A DNA stretch of 64,000 bases from Stappia indica. Its GTDB lineage: Bacteria; Pseudomonadota; Alphaproteobacteria; Rhizobiales; Stappiaceae. Numbering within the stretch: position 1 is the stretch's first letter; each line of letters starts with the position of its first letter. A program made the translations under genes and the position numbers. Under the pieces are notes generated by a model. That model searched no databases. It saw only the letters and a program-made list of their open reading frames with translations, and was not told the origin of the DNA. Shown here piece by piece: positions 2,845 to 18,337 of the stretch. The DNA lies in contig NZ_CP046908.1 of NCBI RefSeq assembly GCF_009789575.1, positions 1,116,001 through 1,180,000 on the forward strand. Direction: 5' to 3'.

Positions 2845-3608
2845 GCAACCCCCTCCCGCGCCAGGCTCTCCAGGAAGTCGATCACGCCCGCCTTGTAGAC
2901 CTTGTCGCCCACCGCGATCATGTGGTCTCGGCCGGGGATCTCCAGCACCCTCGCCCTTGGCATCAGCCGGGCGAGCTTCTCCGGCGAACCGGCGATCTCG
3001 TCCTTGGTCCCGACGGCAACCAGAACCGGCTGGGTGATGCGGGAGACCTCGTCCTCGCCGATCTTCTGCCGCGAGGAGCGCATGCAGGCGGCGAGCGCGA
3101 GACGGTCGGAATTGGTCTGCTCGGCAAAGGCCCGGAAAGCACGCGCTCCGCGGTCCGTGACATCCGAGAGCTTCTCCGCCTCAAGTCCGGCGGCGATCGG
3201 TTCGGGATCGCCGACGCCGGTGATCATGCCGTAGCCCAGCCCGCCGAAGACGGCGCTGCGCACCCGCTGCGGATGGTTGAGCGTCAGGAAGGCAGAGATC
3301 CGCGCGCCCATCGAGTAGCCCATCACGTCGGTCCGCTCGATGCCGAGATGGTCCAGCAGGCGCCTTGCATCCTCCGCCATCGCCGGCGCGCCGTAGTCGT
3401 CGGGATTGTGGCTGCCGGCGCTCTCGCCATGCCCGCGGTTGTCGATGGCGATCACCCGCCGGCCGGCCTCGGTCAGCAGCTTCACCCAGCCGGGATAGAC
3501 CCAGTTCACATGCTTGTTGGAGGCAAAGCCGTGGATGAGAAGGATCGGCTCGCCCCGTCCCTCGTCCAGATAGGCGAGGCGGAGATCGGCGGAATCGAAA
3601 TGGGGCAT
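2841..3608 (-). CDS. Alpha/beta hydrolase, first gene of a two-hydrolase operon
   Basis: A 255-residue alpha/beta hydrolase. HGFASNK forms the oxyanion region, GYSMGA is the nucleophile elbow, and GRDHMI carries the catalytic His. The frame stays open much further upstream, but similarity to the family begins at MPHFDSADLRLAYLDEG, so the ATG at 3608 is chosen. Its stop overlaps the GTG of the next hydrolase. Fourteen bases upstream of the start lies a palindrome, TTGACGTAAACGTAAA, resembling a MerR-family operator. If that is functional, the pair belongs to a fatty-acid or branched-chain acid catabolic regulon. The substrate is unknown. Confidence 0.86.
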   Translation of the reverse strand: MPHFDSADLRLAYLDEGRGEPILLIHGFASNKHVNWVYPGWVKLLTEAGRRVIAIDNRGHGESAGSHNPDDYGAPAMAEDARRLLDHLGIERTDVMGYSMGARISAFLTLNHPQRVRSAVFGGLGYGMITGVGDPEPIAAGLEAEKLSDVTDRGARAFRAFAEQTNSDRLALAACMRSSRQKIGEDEVSRITQPVLVAVGTKDEIAGSPEKLARLMPRARVLEIPGRDHMIAVGDKVYKAGVIDFLESLAREGVA

Positions 3609-3621
3609 CGGAGCCTTTACC

Positions 3622-3637
3622 TTGACGTAAACGTAAA
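3622..3637. promoter_or_regulatory. Candidate LiuR/MerR-type operator
   Basis: TTGACGTAAACGTAAA is an inverted repeat with one mismatch (TTKACGT, two-base spacer, ACGTAAA). It lies 14 bases upstream of the hydrolase start at 3608. From memory it resembles operators of LiuR-like MerR regulators of branched-chain amino acid and acyl-CoA breakdown in proteobacteria. The match is by eye only. Confidence 0.45.
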
Positions 3638-3834
3638 AAGACAGAGTCCCACGATAGTGCGCATGGCTGCCGATGAAAAGCCTGCAGCCCCCGGGCTGTG
3701 CGCCCCTTGCTCGCGCTCCCTGCTTCCGGTCGCCGCAGTTGTGGCGAAACCGCCACTTCCCCCTGTTCAAACTGCTCCTTCCTGCGTATGGTCCGGCAAA
3801 TCCTGCAGGACATGCTGAACGACGGATGGATGCG

Positions 3835-4080
3835 ATGGCGCATGCTGTAATTCCCCATTTCCAGAACGACCGCGGCCTGGAGTCGATCGAGATCGGCGCG
3901 AAGGAGTTCCAGTGCGTGGGGGCCCGCCCGCCCTTCGACCATCCGCACGTCTTCCTGGACATGGGCGACGACAACGAGATCATCTGCCCCTACTGCTCGA
4001 CGCTCTACCGCTACAACCCGGCCCTGAGCGCTCATCAGGCGGAGCCGGCCGACTGCGTCTGGGCCCCGGAAGCCGCCTGA
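3835..4080 (+). CDS. Zinc-finger domain protein, CHCC type
   Basis: An 81-residue protein of the small CHCC zinc-finger family related to the complex I accessory subunit NDUFS6/Lpd6. Potential zinc ligands are the Cys in KEFQCVGA, the His residues in FDHPH, and the pair in CPYCSTLYRYNP. The ATG at 3835 gives the usual family start (MAHAVIPHFQND); an ATG nine bases earlier is also possible. It is followed 25 bases later by a monooxygenase gene on the same strand and is divergent from the hydrolase pair. The role is probably complex I related or structural, by family inference. Confidence 0.85.
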   Translation: MAHAVIPHFQNDRGLESIEIGAKEFQCVGARPPFDHPHVFLDMGDDNEIICPYCSTLYRYNPALSAHQAEPADCVWAPEAA

Positions 4081-4105
4081 CCGACGGCTGCCGCAAGGCT
4101 CGCCC

Positions 4106-5329
4106 ATGGCGCAGTCCCACTCCGACGCGAACCGCATCTTCATCGCCGGTGCAGGCATCGGCGGCCTGACGGCCGCCTTGTGCCTGTCGCGCCGCTCGCG
4201 GGCCGTGACGGTGATCGAGCAGGCGAGCGAGCTGCGCCCCGTCGGCTCCGGCTTGCAGCTTCCCCCCAATACGATGCAGGTGCTGCGCGACCTCGGCCTT
4301 GAGGACGCGCTTCTTCCGCATGTTGCCGCGCCTCGTGCCATCGAGGTGATGACCTGGCGCAGCGACACCCCGGTCGCCGAAATTCCGCTCGGGAAGATCG
4401 CCGAGGAGCGGTACGGCGCGCCCTATCTGGTCATTCACCGCGCAGACCTGCAGGGAGTGCTGCTGAAAGCGGCCCGCGCCTCAGCCGGCATTACCCTGCG
4501 CCTCGGCACGCGGCTGCGCGCAGCCGCGCAAAGCGCCGACGCCATCAAGCTGGAACTCGAGCACGCAGCCGAGGACACGGATCCAGACACCCCGCTCGAT
4601 CACGATACGGGCGCGGCGCTGATCGGCGCGGACGGCGTCTGGTCGACCGTGCGCCGCCGCATCATGGGCCTGCGTGCCGCCGCCTTCTCCGGGCGCACCG
4701 CCTACCGGGCCGTCATCCCGGCGAGCGAGGTGCCCGAGCGCTGGCGCAACGTCACCGGCCTGTGGCTCGGCCCGCGCGCCCATGTCGTGCACTATCCCGT
4801 CGCCGGCGGCGAGCGCTTCAATCTGGTCGCCCTGGTGGAAGAGGATTGGCAGGAAGAGGCCTGGTCCGGCCCCGCCGACCGCAGCGCCCTGCTGGACCGC
4901 TTCCGCGACTGGCCGGGCAGCTGCCGCGAACTGCTTTCCCTCCCCTCCTCTTGGCTGAAATGGGCGCTGTGCTCGATGGATCCTGGCACCAGTTGGGTCG
5001 ACGGGCGTTTTGCCCTGCTCGGCGATGCCGCCCACGCGATGCTGCCCTTTGCCGCCCAGGGCGCGGCCATGGCCATCGAGGATGCGGAGGCGCTGGCGCG
5101 TCATCTCGACCAGGGCGCGAGCGATGTCCCGCGTGCCCTGCGCGCCTATGAGGCGGAACGGCAGGATCGGGCCGAGCGGGTGATGCGCCTGGCACGCTCC
5201 AACGACCGCATCTACCACATGAGCGGGCCGCTGGCGCTTGCCCGCGACCTGGTGATGCGATCCTTGCCGTCGGAACGTCTTCTCGCGCGGCTCGATTGGC
5301 TATATGGATGGCGGCCTCCGGGCGCCTGA
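4106..5329 (+). CDS. FAD-dependent monooxygenase (salicylate hydroxylase-like)
   Basis: A 407-residue group A flavoprotein monooxygenase of the PHBH fold, using NAD(P)H and oxygen to hydroxylate an organic ring. It has the N-terminal Rossmann motif GAGIGGLTAA, the internal ADGVWS (DG) motif and the C-terminal GDAAHAMLPFAAQGA flavin-binding motif. The ATG at 4106 directly precedes the Rossmann strand. In this family similar proteins act on salicylate, 3-hydroxybenzoate or kynurenine-type substrates. No ring-cleavage gene is nearby, so the substrate cannot be named. Confidence 0.88.
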   Translation: MAQSHSDANRIFIAGAGIGGLTAALCLSRRSRAVTVIEQASELRPVGSGLQLPPNTMQVLRDLGLEDALLPHVAAPRAIEVMTWRSDTPVAEIPLGKIAEERYGAPYLVIHRADLQGVLLKAARASAGITLRLGTRLRAAAQSADAIKLELEHAAEDTDPDTPLDHDTGAALIGADGVWSTVRRRIMGLRAAAFSGRTAYRAVIPASEVPERWRNVTGLWLGPRAHVVHYPVAGGERFNLVALVEEDWQEEAWSGPADRSALLDRFRDWPGSCRELLSLPSSWLKWALCSMDPGTSWVDGRFALLGDAAHAMLPFAAQGAAMAIEDAEALARHLDQGASDVPRALRAYEAERQDRAERVMRLARSNDRIYHMSGPLALARDLVMRSLPSERLLARLDWLYGWRPPGA

Positions 5330-5409
5330 TCATGCCCGCGAGCGCACCGATCCACGCCCCGACGGCGCGGGAAAAGGGGCGACAGGGACTGATCCAGGAG
5401 TGGGTGGGC

Positions 5410-6147
5410 ATGTCGACTGACCAGGACATCGTGACCGCAGGCTTCCTCGTCATCGGCGACGAGATCCTGTCGGGGCGCACCAAGGACAAGAACATCGGCT
5501 ATCTCGCCGAATATCTCACGGCCATCGGCGTCGACCTGTCCGAGGTGCGCGTGGTGCCGGATGTGGAAGACCGCATCGTCGAGGCGGTGCGCGAGTTGAG
5601 CGCCCGCTACACCTATGTCTTCACCTCCGGCGGCATCGGCCCGACCCATGACGACATCACCGCCGATTCGATGGCCAAGGCCTTCGGCGTGCCGATCGAC
5701 CACGATCCGCGCGCCGTCGAGATCCTTCGCAATTTCTATCCCGAGGGCCAGCTGACCGAGGCGCGCCTGCGCATGGCGCGCATTCCGCAAGGCGCCGACC
5801 TCATCGAGAATTCCGTCTCGAAGGCGCCCGGCTTCCGCATCGGCAACGTCCATGTCATGGCCGGCGTCCCCTCGATCATGCAGGCCATGCTCGATGCCGT
5901 CGCCCCGACGCTGAAGACCGGCAAGCGCATGCTGTCGGAGGCGGTGGATGCCGACCTGCCGGAAAGCCGCATCGCGGCAAGCCTGCGCGAGATCCAGGAG
6001 GCGCATCCCGGCGTCATGATCGGCTCGTACCCTCGCTCCGTCGACGGGCGCTTCTCGACCCAGATCGTCGTGCGCTCGCGCGACGGCGACTTGCTGCAAC
6101 GGGCGGCCGAGGCGGTACGCAACGCCGTCGCCGCCACCACCCGCTGA
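5410..6147 (+). CDS. Competence/damage-inducible protein A-like, molybdopterin-binding domain
   Basis: A 245-residue protein with the MoaB/Mog-type domain found in Cin[14 protein letters not shown] near the N terminus and [13 protein letters not shown] in the middle. The C-terminal CinA amidohydrolase domain (pyridine nucleotide recycling) is absent, so this is the short stand-alone form common in alphaproteobacteria. The ATG at 5410 has a CAGGAG ribosome site. The gene follows the monooxygenase by 80 bases and precedes gpt by 38, which suggests a loose co-directional cluster. Its exact function is uncertain. Confidence 0.88.
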
Positions 6148-6185
6148 CCTTTCACGTATCTGCCGAACGACAGGACCCGACCCGC

Positions 6186-6695
6186 ATGGAAAACCCGCAA
6201 GCCCCCAAAGCCTTTCCCGTTTCCTGGGACCAGTTCCACCGCGACTGCCGTGCCCTTGCATGGCGCCTGTCGGGACAGGGCAAGTGGGAAGCGATCGTCT
6301 GCATCACCCGCGGCGGCCTGGTTCCGGCGGCCATCGTCGCGCGCGAGCTCGGCATCCGGCTCATCGAGACGGTGTGCGTCGCCTCCTATCACGACTACGA
6401 GAATCAGGGCGAGTTGCAGGTCCTGAAGACCATCGACAAGAAGGTGGTCGACCTGAACGGCGGCAAGGGGTCCGGCGTGCTGGTCATCGACGACCTGGTC
6501 GATACCGGCAAGACCGCGCGCGTCGTTCGCGAAATGTTGCCCGAAGCGCATTTCGCCACCGTCTATGCCAAGCCGATGGGCCGTCCGCTGGTCGACACCT
6601 TCGTCACCGAGGTCTCGCAGGACACCTGGATCTATTTCCCCTGGGACATGGGCTGGCAGTTCCAGCCGCCGATCGCCACCAGCACTCAGGGCTGA
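6186..6695 (+). CDS. gpt: Xanthine phosphoribosyltransferase
   Basis: Salvages xanthine and guanine by transferring them to PRPP. The 169-residue protein has the PRPP-binding motif [13 protein letters not shown], an N-terminal [12 protein letters not shown] segment and the aromatic C-terminal patch [11 protein letters not shown] typical of bacterial XGPRT. Length fits the family. The start is ATG at 6186, 38 bases after the CinA-like gene. Confidence 0.93.
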
Positions 6696-6871
6696 AGAAC
6701 CCTGCGTCAACTTTACCACATAGCTCCCCGGCGGGTGCAGGCCAGCCCTGCACTCGCGGGAAAGTTATTGCCCTGCCCATATTTCGGCGCAATTTCTCAG
6801 CCTATAACCCCGTTATGACACACGAGATTCTCCAGCGCGCCGGTTCCCTTCCCGCTTCCGGCAACACCCTC

Positions 6872-7552
6872 ATGTCGCGTCGCACCGCTTTGGTCGGTCT
6901 CGGCGCGATGGCGCTTGCCGGCTGCCAGAGCACGGGCAACAACCCGCGCATCCAGGCAGCATCGGCGACGGCACCGGCCCCGGTGATCGACCCGTACTAC
7001 CTGCAGATGTACGCGGCGATGCCGAACGAGAAGTTCCCGATCCCGGCCGTGGACCTGCGCCGGGTCAATCCGGTCTACTTCCGCCAGGTGGTGCCCTACC
7101 GCACCCAGGAACGCGCCGGCACACTGGTGGTCGATACGCCGAACCGGTTCCTCTATCTGGTGATGGAGAACGGACAGGCCTTGCGCTATGGCGTCGGTAT
7201 CGGCCGCGCCGGCTTCGACTGGGGCGGGCGTGCCCGCATCGCCTACAAGCGCGCCTGGCCGCGCTGGACGCCGCCGGCCGAGATGATCGCCCGCCAGCCG
7301 GAGCTGGAGCCCTATCGCAACGGCATGGAGCCGGGGCTCGACAACCCGCTCGGCGCCCGTGCGCTCTACATTTTCGAGGGCAACCGCGACACGATCTACC
7401 GTATCCACGGCACGATGGAATACTGGACCATCGGCAAGGCGGTCTCTTCGGGCTGCGTGCGCCTGATGAACCAGGACATCATCGACCTTGCCGCGCGCGT
7501 GCCTAACAACACGCCGATCGTCGTCCTGCAGGACAATAGCGGCGTCGCCTGA
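6872..7552 (+). CDS. L,D-transpeptidase lipoprotein (YkuD domain)
   Basis: Cross-links peptidoglycan or attaches proteins to it in the periplasm. The YkuD signature is complete: HGTMEY, then SSGCVRLMNQD with the catalytic Cys. From the ATG at 6872 the product starts MSRRTALVGLGAMALAGC, a lipoprotein signal with lipobox LAGC (Cys18). An in-frame ATG at 6815 would add 19 residues in front of it; neither start has a strong ribosome site, and the shorter form is preferred because it leaves a normal signal peptide. The gene ends before a strong terminator at 7595. Its first Arg residues could also suggest Tat export, but no true RR motif is present. Confidence 0.9.
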   Translation: MSRRTALVGLGAMALAGCQSTGNNPRIQAASATAPAPVIDPYYLQMYAAMPNEKFPIPAVDLRRVNPVYFRQVVPYRTQERAGTLVVDTPNRFLYLVMENGQALRYGVGIGRAGFDWGGRARIAYKRAWPRWTPPAEMIARQPELEPYRNGMEPGLDNPLGARALYIFEGNRDTIYRIHGTMEYWTIGKAVSSGCVRLMNQDIIDLAARVPNNTPIVVLQDNSGVA

Positions 7553-7594
7553 CGGCAGCGGCCGCATTTTCCCACCGAATACACAAGATGCTGG

Positions 7595-7620
7595 CGGGCC
7601 CGTTGCAACGGGCCCGTTTT
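7595..7620 (+). terminator. Rho-independent terminator after L,D-transpeptidase
   Basis: A perfect 22-bp palindrome (7595-7616, arms CGGGCCCGTTG and CAACGGGCCCG) followed by TTTT. It lies 42 bases after the transpeptidase stop and just before the convergent sfsA stop, so it probably insulates both. Confidence 0.88.
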
Positions 7621-7622
7621 CG

Positions 7623-8324
7623 TTATGGCAGCAGGGTTACCCGCTGCTCGGCGATGATTTCCTCCGGCGTGATCCGGCAGCCGATCGCATAGGCCTCGAC
7701 GCCCCGTTCCCGCGCCGCCGCAAAGGCTGCGGCATAGGCCGGGTCGAGATCGCCGGCAAAGGAGAGGCGGTCGCAGTCCGGTCGCTGCACGAGGTAGACC
7801 ATCGCCGCGCGCGAACCTTCCGCCACCATGTCTCCCATCTCGACGAGATGCTTGGCACCGCGCGCAGTCACCGAGTCCGGAAACTCTGCGAGGCCCGCCT
7901 GCCGCATCAGGTGAACGTTCTTGACCTCGACATAGACCGGACGGCCGTCAGCCCCTTCAAGCAGGATATCGATGCGCGAGTTGCGGCCGTATTTCACTTC
8001 GCGGCGCAGCCCGGTGAAACCGGCCAGTTCCTCGATCAACCCGGCACGCAGCGCCTCCTCGACCAGGCCGTTGGGATGAGCGGTGTTGATGCCGACCAGC
8101 GCTCCGTCGGCCTCCACGATCTCCCAGGAATATTTCAGCTTTCGCGCCGGATTGTCGGACACCGACAGATAGACCCGCGCGCCGGGCTCGCGCAGTCCCA
8201 GCATCGAGCCGGGATTGGCGCAGTGGGCCGTCACCTCCTCGCCGCTGTCGAGAACAACATCGGCAAGGAACCGCTTGTAGCGCTTGACCAGGCGGCCGGG
8301 CACGAGAGGAGTGGCAAAACGCAA
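7623..8324 (-). CDS. sfsA: SfsA family protein (sugar fermentation stimulation)
   Basis: A 233-residue SfsA protein, a nuclease-like DNA-binding fold whose cellular role is poorly defined. It shows the family motifs [10 protein letters not shown] near the N terminus, NSRIDILLE and VEVKNVHL in the nuclease-like core, and [12 protein letters not shown]. The start is inferred as TTG at 8324, because the family begins with a few residues before ATPLVPGRL and GGAG lies at the right distance. It follows trkH by 26 bases on the same strand and probably shares its transcript. Confidence 0.9.
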
Positions 8325-8350
8325 TGGAAACTCCGGACAGTTGAACGGGC

Positions 8351-9796
8351 TCAGCGCGACCAGAAGTCGGGATCGAGCAGCACCAGCACGGTGAACAGTT
8401 CGAGCCGGCCCATCAGCATGGCAAAGGACAGGATCCACTTCGCCCCATCGGGCAGCGGTGCGAAGTTGCCGGCCGGGCCGATGATCGGGCCGAGACCGGG
8501 GCCGACGTTGGAGACCGCCGTTGCCGCCGCCGACAAGGCGGTGACGAGGTCGAGGCCGAAGCCGGACAGCGCCAGCGTGATCGTGCCGACGGAGCCCATG
8601 TAGACAACGAGAAAGGCCAGGACCGAGAAGGACAGCTCCGGCGTCAGGCGGGTATTGGCGTATTGTTCGGACATCACCCGGTTCGGCCGGACCATCCGCC
8701 GCACATGCGCCCGCACGGTGCCGAAGAACACCAGAAAGCGGAAGATCTTGATACCGCCGGACGTGGAACCCGTGCAACCGCCGACAAAGGTCAGCAGCAG
8801 GGCAAGGCCTATCACCGGCGGGCCCCAGGTGGTGTAGTCGCCCATGGCGAAACCCGTCGTCGTGATGATCGAGACGATGTTGAAGGTGGAGGCCAGCAGC
8901 GCCTCCGAGAAATTCATCTCCAGCGCCGCCCCGAGATAGACCGTCACCGCCAGCGAGGTCAGCACCACCAGGCCGAGCAAGGCACGCACCTGCGGGTCGT
9001 TCCACAGCACCAGCGGCCGGCCGCGCAGCGCCTGGATGATAAGAACGAAAGGCATCGCACCCATCAGCATGAAGGTCACCGCGACCCAGCCGGATGCAGG
9101 GTTGGTGAAGAAGGCGAAGGACGCATCATGGGTGGAATAGCCGCCCGTCGAGATCGTCGCCATCGCATGGTTGATCGCATCGAACACCGTCATGCCGGTC
9201 AGCAGGAAGGCCAGCACGCAGACGAAGGTCAGGAACAGGTAGGTGATGCCGAACAGACGGATCAGCTCGACCGAGCGCGCGACGATCTTCTCGCTGCGGT
9301 CCGAGCTTTCGCTCTGAAAGAGCTGCATGCCGCCGATCCGCAGGAACGGCAGCAGCACGATGGCCATGACGACGATGCCGACACCGCCCATCCATTGCAT
9401 CAGGGAGCGCCAGACCAGCAATCCGGGGGGCAAGCTGTCGAGGCCGGACAGCACGGTCGATCCGGTCGTCGTGAAGCCGGACACCGCCTCGAACACCGCA
9501 TCCGCATACCCGATGCCGAGCCACAGGAACGGCAGCGCTCCGAAGGCCGGCAGCGTCAGCCAGGACAGCGTCGTCAGGATGAAGGTCTGGCGGATGTCGA
9601 GCCCTTCGGTCAGCGCACCGCCGACGGCGACGGACAGCAGCAGGCCGATCAGGCCGGTGATCAGCGCCGACATGACAAAGGCCTGCCAGTCGGCATTGCG
9701 CGCGGCGACGTCGACCATCGCCGGGATGAGCATGGCTGTCGCCAGGCCCACATAGAGGAAACCGAGGACGTTGAGCACGGGGCGAAGCGAAATCAC
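8351..9796 (-). CDS. trkH: Potassium uptake protein TrkH
   Basis: The membrane channel subunit of the Trk potassium system, which works with a TrkA regulatory protein not seen here. About 481 residues with many hydrophobic helices. Four selectivity-filter loops are visible: [30 protein letters not shown] and [10 protein letters not shown]. The frame is open far upstream, but a GTG at 9796 ([16 protein letters not shown]) matches the usual N terminus. SfsA follows directly downstream. Confidence 0.92.
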
Positions 9797-12268: not shown

Positions 12269-12560
12269 GCGGACGTGGTGGAATTGGTAGACACAAGGGA
12301 CTTGGGTCAAACTTGAGTGCGCCGGCGGAAACGCGGGACGTAGAACTGCTCAAATTCGGGGAACCCTGTCACATGGCGATCCCGAGCCAAGCCCGAGAAA
12401 TCGGGAAGGTGTAGAGACTAGACGGGCAGCACCTAAGGCTTTCGCTACGGTGAAGGTATAGTCCAGACCACAAACGCCGGAAGGCGGCGGCGAAAGCCGT
12501 AGCTGGTACGAAAATCCCTCAGCCTCGGCTATGCGGGTTCGAGTCCCGCCGTCCGTACCA
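12269..12560 (+). tRNA. tRNA-Leu(UAA) interrupted by a group I intron
   Basis: Exon 1 is 12269-12303 and exon 2 is 12511-12560, giving an 85-nt spliced tRNA. The acceptor GCGGACG pairs with CGTCCGT (first pair G-U), and CCA is encoded at 12558-12560. The D arm carries AATTGGTAGAC, and the T arm reads GGGTTCGAGTCCC. Joining the exons gives the anticodon arm AGGGA-CTTAAAA-TCCCT, with anticodon TAA in a 7-base loop and a 5-bp stem. A long class II variable arm follows. The intervening 207 nt lie between anticodon positions 34 and 35. Confidence 0.95.
12304..12510 (+). ncRNA. Self-splicing group I intron in the tRNA-Leu anticodon loop
   Basis: A 207-nt intron with no open frame for a homing nuclease. 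The 5' exon ends in U (12303) and the intron ends in G (12510), as group I introns require. Exon ACUU (12300-12303) can pair with intron GAGU (12315-12318), giving the P1 helix with a U-G pair at the splice site. The conserved core is clear: an R element with GUAGAGACUAGACGG (12411-12425) and an S element AAGGUAUAGUCC (12453-12464). P7 forms from GACUA (12416-12420) with UAGUC (12459-12463). A CCCGAGAAAUCGGG hairpin fits P5. The small size suggests the IC3-type group of bacterial tRNA introns. Confidence 0.93.
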
Positions 12561-13685: not shown

Positions 13686-14396
13686 ATGAACGGCACCGAC
13701 GACGGCTTCTCAGACGCTGGCGTCGCTCCGCATTTCCATGGGCACCGCGACCGGCTGCGCCAGCGCTTCCGCGAAGGCGGCCATGCCGCGCTGCAGGATT
13801 ACGAACTGCTCGAGCTGCTGCTGTTCTCGCCGATCCGCCGCGCCGACACCAAGCCCGTGGCCAAGGCGCTGATCGACCGCTTCGGGTCTTTCGCCGAGGT
13901 GCTGGCCGCCCCGCCGGCCCGCCTCAAGGAAGTGCGCGGCGTCGGCGACCGGGTGGTGGACGAGCTGAAGCTCGCCCATGCGGTGGCCGAGCGCTTCCTG
14001 CGCGGCCAGGTTCGCGAGCGCACCGTGCTGTCGTCCTGGTCGCAGGTGATCGACTATGTGCGCACCGCCATGGCCTTTTCCGACCGGGAAGAGTTCCGCA
14101 TCCTCTTCCTCGACAAGAAGAACGCGCTGATCGCCGACGAGGTGCAGCAGCGCGGCACGGTCGACCACACGCCGGTCTATCCGCGCGAGGTGATGAAGCG
14201 GGCGCTGGAGCTTTCCGCCAGCGCGCTGATCCTGGTGCACAACCACCCGTCCGGCGACCCGACGCCCTCGCGCGCCGACATCCAGATGACCAAGCAGATC
14301 GCCGACATTGCCGGCACGCTCGGCATCGTCCTGCACGACCACATCATCGTCGGGCGCGACGGCCACGCGAGTTTCCGCGGCCTGCAGCTGATCTGA
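13686..14396 (+). CDS. radC: RadC-like JAB domain protein
   Basis: A 236-residue RadC protein. The N-terminal half has a helix-hairpin-helix-like region around [12 protein letters not shown]. The C-terminal JAMM metalloprotease fold carries [16 protein letters not shown] with His185 and His187 as zinc ligands. The name comes from an old link to DNA repair, which is disputed; the biochemical activity is unknown. A very strong ribosome site (GGGAGGGGGCGGC) precedes the ATG at 13686. It is probably cotranscribed with map. Confidence 0.92.
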
Positions 14397-14454
14397 AGCT
14401 CCGAACAGCGCCGTCAGACAGCACCCCGGCAGCGACACCCCGTCGCAGCCGTGC

Positions 14455-14495
14455 TTGACGTTTATCAACGTTCTGCCACACGCCGGCGCTAGGAT
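14455..14495 (+). promoter_or_regulatory. Fnr/FixK-type box with -10 element (class II promoter)
   Basis: TTGACGTTTATCAA at 14455-14468 fits the Fnr/FixK consensus TTGAY-N4-ATCAA exactly. A TAGGAT -10-like element lies at 14490-14495. If transcription starts near 14503, the box is centred at about -41.5, the class II activation distance. The gene 60 bases downstream is a phasin-like protein with a good ribosome site. This predicts induction under low oxygen. Confidence 0.65.
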
Positions 14496-14563
14496 GGTCC
14501 TTGCGGTCGTGGACGGCCGCAACGCCTGTCCCCGCAAAGGGACGCCGCAGGGAGGACCGCACG

Positions 14564-14962
14564 ATGGCAGATACTCGCAAGACCGCTTCCGAGGACGGCG
14601 TCAATGCCTCCCTCACCCCGTTCGAGATGGCCTATTGCAATCCGATGGTTCTGATCGGGCGCATGCAATCCGAGGCGCTGCGCGCGACACTGGACCGGCA
14701 AGTCGAGATGGTCGACTTCCTGCGCCTGCGGGTGGAAAAGGACGTCCGTCTCGCCGAGCGCCTGCTGCAGGCGCGCCAGCCCGTCGACGTCGTTGCGGCC
14801 TGCACCGAGTTCTGCAGCGATGCGCTCGAGGATTACGCCCGCGAGGGCTTCCGCGCGGCCAATCTTGTGCCAGAGGTCGCGGCGGAGGCGGCCGAACGGG
14901 CCGCCCGCGACGCGGAAGAAGTCTCCGACGAGTTGAAGGCGGCCTCTCTCGTCGTCGCCTGA
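14564..14962 (+). CDS. Phasin-like protein, predicted low-oxygen induced
   Basis: A 132-residue helical protein with strings of Glu, Arg and Ala and the segment QVEMVDFLRLRVEKDVRLAE, similar to the phasin family that coats polyhydroxyalkanoate granules. GGGAGGACCGCACG precedes the ATG at 14564. An Fnr/FixK box stands about 100 bases upstream. It is convergent with ackA. Phasin-like small proteins also occur in stress regulons without PHA, so granule binding is inference. Confidence 0.7.
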   Translation: MADTRKTASEDGVNASLTPFEMAYCNPMVLIGRMQSEALRATLDRQVEMVDFLRLRVEKDVRLAERLLQARQPVDVVAACTEFCSDALEDYAREGFRAANLVPEVAAEAAERAARDAEEVSDELKAASLVVA

Positions 14963-14978
14963 CGGCGCACCGCAACAC

Positions 14979-16169
14979 TCACGAAGCCGGCAGGTCGCGG
15001 ACATGCTCCGCGATCATCGCCTCCTCGTCGGTGGCGATCACCCGCACTTCGACAGCGCTGTCCGCCGCAGAGATGACCGGTGCCGCGTCCGCGTTCGCAG
15101 CCCTGTCGAGCCGCACGCCGAGCCATCCCAGCCGCTCGCAGACCCGCTCGCGGATTTCGGGCGCATTCTCGCCGATGCCGGCGGTGAAGACGAACCCGTC
15201 CAGCCCGCCGAGCACGCTGGCCAGCGCACCTGTCTCGCGCACGATGCGATGGACGAAGACGTCGACCGCCTCGGCCGCCGCCGGCTCCGCGCTCTCCAGC
15301 AGCACCCGCATGTCGTTGGAAATGCCGGAAAGCCCCAGCAGTCCTGCGCGCGTGTAGAGCAGCCGCTCCGTCTCGTCGATGGACAGCCCTTCCCAGCGCA
15401 TCAGGTGCAGCAGGGCGCCGGGGTCGAGTGCGCCGCAGCGCGTGCCCATCACCAGCCCGTCCAGCGCCGTGAAGCCCATGGTCGTGTCGATGCTCTCGCC
15501 GCCCCTCAAGGCGCACATGCTGGCGCCGTTGCCCAGATGCGCCGCGATCACCCGCCCGCCATGCACCTGCGGCGAGACGACCGCCAGCCGCCGCGAAACG
15601 TACTCATAGGAGAGACCATGAAAGCCGTAGCGGCGGATGCCGCGCCGCTCGAACTCGCGCGGCAGGGCGAAGCGCGTCGCCACCGCCGGCATCGTGCGGT
15701 GAAAGGCCGTGTCGAAGCACACGACCTGCCGGATGCCGGGCCGTGTGCGGGCGATCTCGCGGATCGGTGCGAGATTGTGCGGCACGTGCAGCGGCGCCAG
15801 TTCCGCCAGGCTGCCGAGCAGGTCCAGGAGCTCCGGCGTCACCTCCTCGGGTGCCCTGTGGCCGGCCCCGCCATGCACCACACGGTGGCCGATACCGGCA
15901 AGATGCCGCCCGTGGAGTTCGCCGTCGAGCCGGGAAAGGAGATGCTCGAGCGAGGCCTCGAAACCGGTCTGTTCCCAGGCCTCGTCGGCGAGCAACTCAC
16001 CGTCCGCGTCCTTCACCCGGAAGCGCTGGCCAGCTCCGTCCTCGCGCAGTTCGCCCCGCCGCCAGGCCTGCAGGGCGCCGTCCGCGGCAACATCGAAGAT
16101 CGCGAACTTGATGCTCGATGAGCCCGCATTGAGCGTCAGGATCGCTCCGGTCTCGCCTGCCCCGCTCAC
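14979..16169 (-). CDS. ackA: Acetate (or short-chain acyl) kinase
   Basis: Transfers phosphate between acetyl phosphate and ADP, making ATP from acetyl-CoA with the neighbouring Pta. The 396-residue protein has the ASKHA fold motifs: NAGSSSIKF at the N terminus, FHGLSYEYV and HLGNGASMCAL in the middle, DTTMGFTALDGLVMGTRCG, and FTAGIGENAPEIR near the end. The GTG at 16169 overlaps the TGA of the pta gene (GTGA), indicating coupling. Length is usual. Confidence 0.92.
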   Translation of the reverse strand: MSGAGETGAILTLNAGSSSIKFAIFDVAADGALQAWRRGELREDGAGQRFRVKDADGELLADEAWEQTGFEASLEHLLSRLDGELHGRHLAGIGHRVVHGGAGHRAPEEVTPELLDLLGSLAELAPLHVPHNLAPIREIARTRPGIRQVVCFDTAFHRTMPAVATRFALPREFERRGIRRYGFHGLSYEYVSRRLAVVSPQVHGGRVIAAHLGNGASMCALRGGESIDTTMGFTALDGLVMGTRCGALDPGALLHLMRWEGLSIDETERLLYTRAGLLGLSGISNDMRVLLESAEPAAAEAVDVFVHRIVRETGALASVLGGLDGFVFTAGIGENAPEIRERVCERLGWLGVRLDRAANADAAPVISAADSAVEVRVIATDEEAMIAEHVRDLPAS

Positions 16170-17563
16170 GCCGCGCCCTCCCCGCCGGGGGCCGCGGCAA
16201 GGCGCAACCGTGCCAGCTTCGCGGCGACCGCGCAGGAGGCGAGCCGCGTGCGCTCCGCATCCGCCCGGCTGGTCAGGATGATCGGCACCCGTGCGCCCAG
16301 CACCACGCCGGCGGCATCTGCGCCGGCAAGGAAGGTCAGCTGCTTGGCGAGGATGTTGCCGGCCTCCAGATCCGGCACCACGAGAATGTCCGCCTCGCCC
16401 GCGACCGGCGAGACGATGCCCTTTTCCCTGGCGGCCCATGGATCGACCGCATTGTCGAAGGCCAGCGGCCCGTCGACGAGCCCGCCGGTGATCTGGCCCC
16501 GGTCCGCCATCTTGCACAACGCCGCGGCGTCCAGCGTCGAGGCAAGCTTCGGATTGATCGTCTCCACCGCCGAGAGGATCGCCACCTTCGGCAGGGCGAG
16601 ACCCATCGCATGTGCCAGATCGATGGCGTTCTGGATGATGTCGCGCTTGATCGCGAGATCGGGCGCGATGTTGACCGCCGCATCGGTCACCAGCAGCGGC
16701 CGGGGGTAGCCCGGCACGTCCATCAGGTAGACATGCGACAGCCGCCGCTCGGTCCGCAGTCCCTTCGCCCGGTCGAGCACGGCGCGCAGCAGCTCGTCCG
16801 TGTGCAGCGAGCCCTTCATCAGCAGCGAGGCTTCACCCCGCCGCACCAGCGCCACCGCCTCCTCGGCCGCCGCGTGGCTGTGCGGCGTCTCGACCAGGCG
16901 GAACCGGTCGAGGGCAACGCCCGCCTCCGCTGCCGCCTGCTCGATCTTGCCGCGCGGCCCCACCAGGATCGGGACGACGATGCCCGCCTGCGCGGCCTCC
17001 GCGGCCGCGGCGATCGCCGGTGCGCTGCAGGGATGGGCAACGGCTGCGACCGGAGGCTCGGAGGACGCCGCCTCCGCCATCAGCGCGCGGAACCTCTCGT
17101 GCCGGCTCATGCGGATATCGGGCAGCTCGGCCCTCGGCCGGCGGATCTTCTCGTTCGGCGCGCGCACGCGGATGGTACCGCAAGCCACCTCCCTGCCCGC
17201 CTCGGTGCGGCAGTCGCAGGACAGGGTCAGCTCCCGTGTCCCGGCTTCCCGTCCGGTGACGGTGAGCGTCAGCACCAGGGCATCGCCGGCGGACACCGTG
17301 CCGCGAAAGGCAAGCTCCTGCCCCAGCATCACCACCCCGGGTCCCGGCAGCTCGGTCGCAACCAGCAGCGACACCAGTCCGGTCACCACCGGGCCGGCGC
17401 TGGCGCCTTCTCCGCCGCTGCCGCCGCCCGCGATCACCGCCAGCAGGTCGATATCCTGCTGGGCGAGCGTCCGGCGCAACACCGCGCTGTCGCCGGCCGC
17501 GATCTCGTCGAAGGTCCGGTTCTCCACCATGTCCTGGCTGGTGGCGCCCGTGCGAATGTCCAT
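16166..17563 (-). CDS. Bifunctional MaoC-like hydratase / phosphate acyltransferase
   Basis: A 465-residue fusion. Residues 1-140 look like a MaoC/hot-dog hydratase domain (MVENRTFDEIAAGD near the start, ending RVRAPNEKI). Residues about 150-455 are a phosphate acetyl/butyryltransferase (LLMKGSLHTDELL, LVTDAAVNIAPD, KLASTLDAAALCKMAD). It should convert acyl-CoA plus phosphate to acyl phosphate, feeding AckA. The ATG at 17563 has a weak ribosome site; an internal ATG at 17530 fits the usual family start. The fusion suggests acyl-CoAs other than acetyl-CoA may be handled. Confidence 0.9.
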   Translation of the reverse strand: MDIRTGATSQDMVENRTFDEIAAGDSAVLRRTLAQQDIDLLAVIAGGGSGGEGASAGPVVTGLVSLLVATELPGPGVVMLGQELAFRGTVSAGDALVLTLTVTGREAGTRELTLSCDCRTEAGREVACGTIRVRAPNEKIRRPRAELPDIRMSRHERFRALMAEAASSEPPVAAVAHPCSAPAIAAAAEAAQAGIVVPILVGPRGKIEQAAAEAGVALDRFRLVETPHSHAAAEEAVALVRRGEASLLMKGSLHTDELLRAVLDRAKGLRTERRLSHVYLMDVPGYPRPLLVTDAAVNIAPDLAIKRDIIQNAIDLAHAMGLALPKVAILSAVETINPKLASTLDAAALCKMADRGQITGGLVDGPLAFDNAVDPWAAREKGIVSPVAGEADILVVPDLEAGNILAKQLTFLAGADAAGVVLGARVPIILTSRADAERTRLASCAVAAKLARLRLAAAPGGEGAA

Positions 17564-17752: not shown

Positions 17753-18337
17753 ATGAACCGCCTGTTTGCACGTCTTGCCTGCGCATTGCTTACCCTTGCA
17801 GCTCTCGGCGGCCCGCCGCTGCGGGCGGACGAGAGAACCGCGCATGACTTCTCGCTGACGGCGATCGACGGTTCGGCGATGCCGCTTTCAGCCTATCGCG
17901 GCAAGACCGTTCTCGTCGTCAACACCGCCTCGCGCTGCAGCTTCACGCAGCAATATGCGCCGCTGCAGGCCCTGCACGAGGAATATCGCGACCGCGGCCT
18001 CGTGGTGATCGGCGTGCCGTCCAACGATTTTGGCGGACAGGAGCCGGGAACGGAAGGCGACATCGAGGACTTCACGCGATCCGCCTACCGGGTCGACTTT
18101 CCGCTGACCAACAAGACATCGGTGCGCGGCGAGGCGGCAACGCCGTTCTACAAATGGGTGACGCGCGAGGCCGGGCCGCTCGGCGCGCCGCGCTGGAACT
18201 TCCAGAAATACCTGATCGGACCCGACGGCCGCCTGGTGGAGTGGTACACGCCGATGACCGAACCGGACTCCCCGCGCCTGCGCGCCGCCATCGAGCGCAG
18301 CCTTGCCACCCATGCATCGACCGCCGGCGGGTCCTGA
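17753..18337 (+). CDS. Secreted glutathione peroxidase family protein
   Basis: Reduces peroxides using a thiol donor. The 194-residue product begins with a signal peptide (MNRLFARLACALLTLAALGG, cleavage probably after the ADE region). The catalytic tetrad is Cys62 in NTASRCSFT, Gln96 in FGGQEPG, and Trp148-Asn149 in APRWNF. It is a Cys, not selenocysteine, enzyme, and its export points to a periplasmic role. GAGGAGCCCGCC precedes the ATG at 17753. Confidence 0.9.
   Translation: MNRLFARLACALLTLAALGGPPLRADERTAHDFSLTAIDGSAMPLSAYRGKTVLVVNTASRCSFTQQYAPLQALHEEYRDRGLVVIGVPSNDFGGQEPGTEGDIEDFTRSAYRVDFPLTNKTSVRGEAATPFYKWVTREAGPLGAPRWNFQKYLIGPDGRLVEWYTPMTEPDSPRLRAAIERSLATHASTAGGS

Follow-up and report, generated by a model that had tools for sequence, protein, structure and literature searches.

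A probable FixK-dependent class II promoter upstream of a phasin-like gene in Stappia indica

The Stappia host is a non-symbiotic marine alphaproteobacterium. Within the 64-kb stretch of its genome analyzed here (referred to as the window), a phasin-like gene lies on the forward strand (positions 14564 to 14962) and encodes a 132-amino-acid protein that marginally matches Phasin_2 and is predicted to form two long helices. A ribosome binding site read from the sequence (GGGAGGA, 14550 to 14556, forward strand) precedes it. Convergent with this gene on the reverse strand are a gene for an acetate/propionate-type kinase, AckA (14979 to 16169), and a gene for a MaoC-phosphotransacylase fusion (MaoC-Pta, 16166 to 17563). 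Elsewhere in the window, we observed a tRNA-Leu(UAA) gene (12269 to 12560, forward strand) that is interrupted by a 207-base group I intron (12304 to 12510) inserted between bases 34 and 35 of the anticodon. The intron matches Rfam RF00028 at 42.2 bits (E = 1.6e-9), under the gathering score of 50, and the joined exons form tRNA-Leu(taa). This gene was found by ARAGORN in intron mode and is missed by the default ARAGORN and Rfam scans.

Upstream of the phasin-like gene lies the sequence TTGACGTTTATCAA (14455 to 14468; TTGAC-GTTT-ATCAA, assigned to neither strand), a TTGAY-N4-RTCAA palindrome of the kind that serves as a class II activator site for FixK/FNR proteins. The sequence-only reading of this DNA had claimed an exact Fnr/FixK consensus at this position with a TAGGAT element at the spacing of a -41.5 site, and both points were borne out: the box fits TTGAY-N4-ATCAA exactly, and TAGGAT (14490 to 14495, forward strand) follows it by 21 bp as a -10 element. 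From this spacing, transcription is predicted to start at G14503 on the forward strand, which would center the box at -41.5. An ordinary sigma-70 promoter for the phasin-like gene was rejected, since TTGACG stands 29 bp from TAGGAT and is thereby ruled out as its -35 element, and a sigma-70 scan of positions 14300 to 15100 found no promoter. A structured 5' leader was likewise rejected, as the region folds no better than its shuffles (z = -0.28).

We assessed how specific the motif is at several scales. The palindrome TTGAY-N5-TCAA occurs in the window at 14455 to 14468 only (two strand-wise matches), compared with a mean of 0.23 matches in shuffled windows and at least two matches in 5 of 100 shuffles. 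With a site matrix whose training set included the phasin box itself, this box scores 19.4 and the next best site in the window 14.7. The exact 14-mer TTGACGTTTATCAA is found once in the 5,116,759-base genome. The strict pattern TTGAY-N4-RTCAA occurs at 13 places genome-wide, compared with 4 places for its reversed form and 2.5 expected from base composition, and 11 of the 13 sites fall outside the genes called by a simple codon-usage gene caller. The looser TTGA-N6-TCAA is found at 26 places and its reversed control at 13, which indicates that loose matches are partly noise. The motif is short, so some single matches must be due to chance; that the phasin box is one of them, with another promoter driving the gene, is nonetheless scarcely credible in light of its conservation, described below.

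Homologues of the phasin-like gene are present in 8 of the 87 genomes of the family, namely, 6 of 14 Stappia genomes (including the one analyzed here) and 2 Roseibium genomes. In all eight of these close loci (the window, five other Stappia loci, and two Roseibium loci), a box is followed at exactly 21 bp by a TANNNT hexamer upstream of the gene. The eight loci carry five different boxes, which differ in their spacers, and five different hexamers (TAGGAT in four loci and TATGCT, TACACT, TAAACT, and TATTCT in the others). The box of the S. indica locus L081 is identical to that of the window. This retention of a box with a fixed -10 spacing argues strongly against a chance match. As a control, we counted strict boxes outside the upstream windows of these loci; this was preferred to the shuffle expectation (0.05 sites for 34 loci) because the flanks also hold boxes. 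The close loci contain nine strict boxes in 2.9 kb of upstream sequence and none in 24 kb of flanks. In one of these loci, L084 from Roseibium litorale, the 7 kb surrounding the homologue (2921 to 9605 of that locus) contains six TTGA-N6-TCAA palindromes and is apparently a low-oxygen gene cluster.

Searching 397 genomes of the order with a profile gave 42 matches in 41 genomes. The best 30 were taken forward and the 12 weakest set aside; 4 of the 30 had already been counted, leaving 26 new, distant loci, 3 of which belong to the family but to further genera within it. Among these 26, 11 have a strict box within 350 bp before the predicted start, with TANNNT at 21 bp in three cases and at 23 bp in one. 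Their upstream regions hold 14 strict boxes in 9.4 kb; the flanks hold 9 in 73 kb, from which 1.2 would be expected, and this again speaks against coincidence. The remaining 15 distant homologues lack a box, and two of these (L053 and L055) lie beside phaC. When all 34 loci are taken together, TANNNT stands 21 bp from 11 of the 23 boxes and 23 bp from one, and no TANNNT is found at any other spacing from 18 to 24 bp. A PhaC_N protein adjoins the homologue in five loci (L045, L050, L053, L054, and L055), and other neighbors include a universal stress protein (L052), CBS and CRP proteins (L058), and a response regulator (L051). The proposal of a class II promoter for the phasin-like gene is thus well supported, both by this footprinting and by the genes elsewhere in the genome that share the motif.

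Those genes emerged from the genome-wide scan for the strict pattern, in which several of the 13 sites precede classic targets. By family search, strict boxes stand before the typical FixK targets ccoN, ccoG, ubiD, and usp. Alongside UbiD, two U32-type proteins adjoin strict boxes, and we take these for UbiU and UbiV. The box at the universal stress protein gene (L007) also has a CoA-ligase/GNAT protein next to it, and other neighbors of strict boxes are cytochrome oxidase subunit II (L008) and an HlyD protein at each of two boxes (L009 and L012). The spacing to a -10-like element is less uniform across this set, as TANNNT lies 18 to 24 bp away, in either direction, from no more than 5 of the 13 boxes and from neither the ccoN nor the ccoG box. 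One further strict palindrome (box L004) is flanked by phaA and phaB, at genome position 2742062 (position 7062 of locus L078). It has no TANNNT at 18 to 24 bp in either direction; it may possibly place a second polyhydroxybutyrate (PHB) gene under the regulator of the phasin-like gene. Neither of the two phaC genes has any of the 26 loose palindromes of the genome nearby.

We then considered which regulator would read the phasin box. The genome has 27 matches to HTH_Crp_2 and 4 to Crp. We inspected the proteins belonging to 20 of these HTH_Crp_2 matches, leaving out seven weak ones, and found five CRP/FNR-type proteins among them (L014 to L017 and L018). The recognition helix signature E--SR marks FNR/FixK proteins. 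The helix reads IETVSR in L015, RENVSR in L016, LHTVSR in L014, and VHVNR in L017, while L018 has none of this kind. L015 (genome positions 4175398 to 4176123; 5398 to 6123 of locus L076) is encoded beside fixL, fixJ, and hemN, and its best NCBIfam models are FixK (117.7 bits) and FnrL (102.1 bits), both under their cut-offs. The neighboring products score 318 of 850 bits for FixL and 215 of 255 bits for FixJ, both below the curated cut-offs, and 422 bits for HemN, which is over its cut-off. The ccoN box lies 3.5 kb and the ccoG box 12.6 kb beyond L015, and the cbb3 oxidase genes follow. Inspection of L015 found no cysteine in its N-terminal third; lacking an N-terminal cysteine cluster, it does not fit an oxygen-sensing Fnr/FnrL protein. 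Because of the L015 locus, its helix, its best models, and the missing N-terminal cysteines, we interpret the phasin site as a box for FixK acting under FixLJ. L015 would therefore be the cognate regulator of the class II site, with the reservation that its models score below cut-off. The sequence-only reading had named Fnr/FixK as the activator; the class of the box stands, and the reader is narrowed to FixK, which is likely mainly by gene context.

For L016 the best NCBIfam model is CRP (73.5 bits) and for L017 it is Fnr (75.8 bits), both under cut-off. L014 encodes an NnrR/Dnr-like CRP/FNR protein close to nnrS (Pfam NnrS, E = 1.1e-46) and may be the main rival reader of the phasin box; the CRP-like L016 also has a helix (RENVSR) that could suit it. 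If L014 were the principal reader, the gene would answer to nitric oxide and not to oxygen. The TTG-N8-CAAA box of NnrR in Sinorhizobium may overlap the FixK consensus (PMC5596199), which, with the LHTVSR helix and the nearby NnrS gene, lends this idea some substance. We nevertheless consider it very unlikely, because both half-sites of the phasin box are full TTGAY/RTCAA sequences and because sites of the same strict form stand before ccoN and ccoG, which are standard FixK targets.

Like members of Phasin_2 (PF09361), the product of the phasin-like gene is small and predicted to be all helical, but unlike them it scores just under the curated cut-off: the match is marginal (E = 9e-5; 23.1 bits against a gathering cut-off of 24.9; model positions 31 to 95). 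TIGR01985 gives 14.5 bits, far under its cut-off of 99.7. Phasin_2 was also detected at an E value of 0.01 or less in seven of the eight members of alignment A1. AlphaFold2 predicts helices at residues 27 to 69 and 74 to 131 (pLDDT, 73; pTM, 0.47), and this long alpha-helical fold, as expected for Phasin_2, fits a phasin without being diagnostic of one. A Foldseek search against the PDB returned no match at an E value of 0.001 or less, which says nothing either way about a helical hairpin with a pLDDT of 73. The genome encodes phaA, phaB, and two phaC genes, which makes PHB metabolism plausible. Taken as a Phasin_2-like protein, the product is likely a storage-granule coat protein. The same genome has three stronger phasin loci, none of which has a box in the approximately 3.2 kb examined for each (two of these loci overlap).

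Herbaspirillum seropedicae belongs to another class of bacteria. There, an Fnr-family activator, Fnr3, acts directly on a phasin gene (Hsero_1639; PMC5934665), as we propose here; it differs in being Fnr where we favor FixK. The promoter also resembles the FixK2 promoters of Bradyrhizobium diazoefficiens (fixNOQP and phaC2) in its 14-bp palindrome, in a FixLJ-FixK cascade, and in having a PHB gene as a target, as FixK2 and phaC2 are linked in that genus (PMC9104804; PMC10888616). It differs from them in that its target is a phasin-like gene and theirs is a synthase, and the word "phasin" does not occur in the main text of PMC9104804. Control of phbC by FnrN/FixK has been predicted in Rhizobiales (PMC4999443). 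In Sphingopyxis granuli, class II Fnr promoters such as those of ccoN and uspA have boxes at -41.5 (PMC7713065), matching the present site in box position and overlapping with it in types of target; unlike here, a phasin gene of that species is among the anaerobically induced genes, with a slow induction ascribed to anaerobic growth conditions. Two findings from Bradyrhizobium indicate that FixK cannot be linked to higher PHB in general. PHB accumulation in a fixK2 mutant exceeded that of the wild type, according to a table in a review (PMC9049629), and in a table of PMC6515984, in the part available without the headings of the column concerned, the microoxia-induced phasin blr2887 does not bear the "+" carried in the last column by fixO and fixP. 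The Bradyrhizobium PHB result, together with the E--SR helix of L016, slightly lowers our confidence in the FixK promoter reading. Among the literature titles and beginnings of abstracts listed, none reported that FixK controls this phasin or paired a phasin with a phosphotransacylase.

The convergent genes raise the question of whether they belong to the same response, the sequence-only reading having envisaged a low-oxygen overflow module that would join them to the phasin-like gene. The linkage itself holds up across the genus: of 14 Stappia genomes, 6 have the phasin-like gene, ackA, and maoC-pta as a set, while the remaining 8 are without both the phasin-like gene and AckA of this type. 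AckA proteins of 75 to 100% identity are confined to the same six genomes, whereas the other eight have only AckAs of 48 to 53% identity in different surroundings. (Genome G077, which is 7% contaminated, has three AckAs, and G084 carries an additional one, of 51% identity.) In G084, the trio is 22 kb from radC and is still intact as a group. In at least four of the eight trio-less genomes (L109, L110, L112, and L113), radC is directly followed by a glutathione peroxidase gene, and in the window a gene of the same kind borders the trio at the end away from radC. These patterns, together with an acetate/propionate kinase in a phosphoketolase operon that a table of PMC9104804 gives as FixK2 dependent in Bradyrhizobium, favor a co-regulated module. 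The shared regulator box is where the proposal falters, as no box lies upstream of maoC-pta, where the best matrix score is 8.4 (at 17855) against 19.4 for the phasin box. In addition, RadC identity parts the same six genomes from the rest (91 to 100% versus 85 to 88%), so the distribution of the trio is explicable by one event, either gain or loss, at the root of a clade, and tblastn of the two Roseibium loci (approximately 10 kb each) found no relative of this AckA or MaoC-Pta. We conclude that the phasin-like gene and maoC-pta/ackA are genetically linked and that a joint overflow module is hypothetical and rather unlikely. A separate feature of the fusion protein concerns its first half. 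The NPxH motif is absent from the MaoC-like domain in all five trio copies compared (the window and L080 to L083) and kept in all six other copies from the genus that were compared (L092, L093, L094, L097, L100, and L102; L095, L096, L098, L099, and L101 were left out of the comparison). The name "enoyl-CoA hydratase/phosphate acetyltransferase" may be misleading for this half.

From the box, its spacing and conservation, the fixLJK locus, and the typical targets that carry the motif, all of which were observed here, we infer that positions 14455 to 14503 are, with good probability, a FixK-dependent class II promoter that drives microoxic expression of the phasin-like gene for granule coating. 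As oxygen falls, FixL-FixJ would raise the level of FixK, a dimer of which would bind TTGAC-N4-ATCAA centered at -41.5 in place of a -35 element. Bound FixK would then recruit RNA polymerase to the TANNNT -10 element and initiate transcription at the predicted start. The phasin-like protein would thus be made under microoxia and could coat PHB granules or serve as a granule-linked chaperone. A more far-reaching picture, which we advance as speculation and doubt as a whole, is that of a distinct phasin subfamily for low oxygen that FixK/FNR proteins control directly throughout the order, often beside its own PHA synthase. In one Stappia clade, this subfamily would have become associated with a phosphotransacylase-acyl kinase pair whose MaoC domain is disabled, as one block-inherited cassette for microoxic carbon overflow that yields ATP from acyl phosphate together with granule coating.

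A FixK-activated phasin-like gene probably extends known regulation and is nothing new in principle. Its meaning for Stappia is that the FixK/FNR regulon likely reaches beyond PHB synthase to include a phasin-like gene as a direct member, and the promoter allows one to ask in vivo whether one phasin paralogue is reserved for low oxygen.
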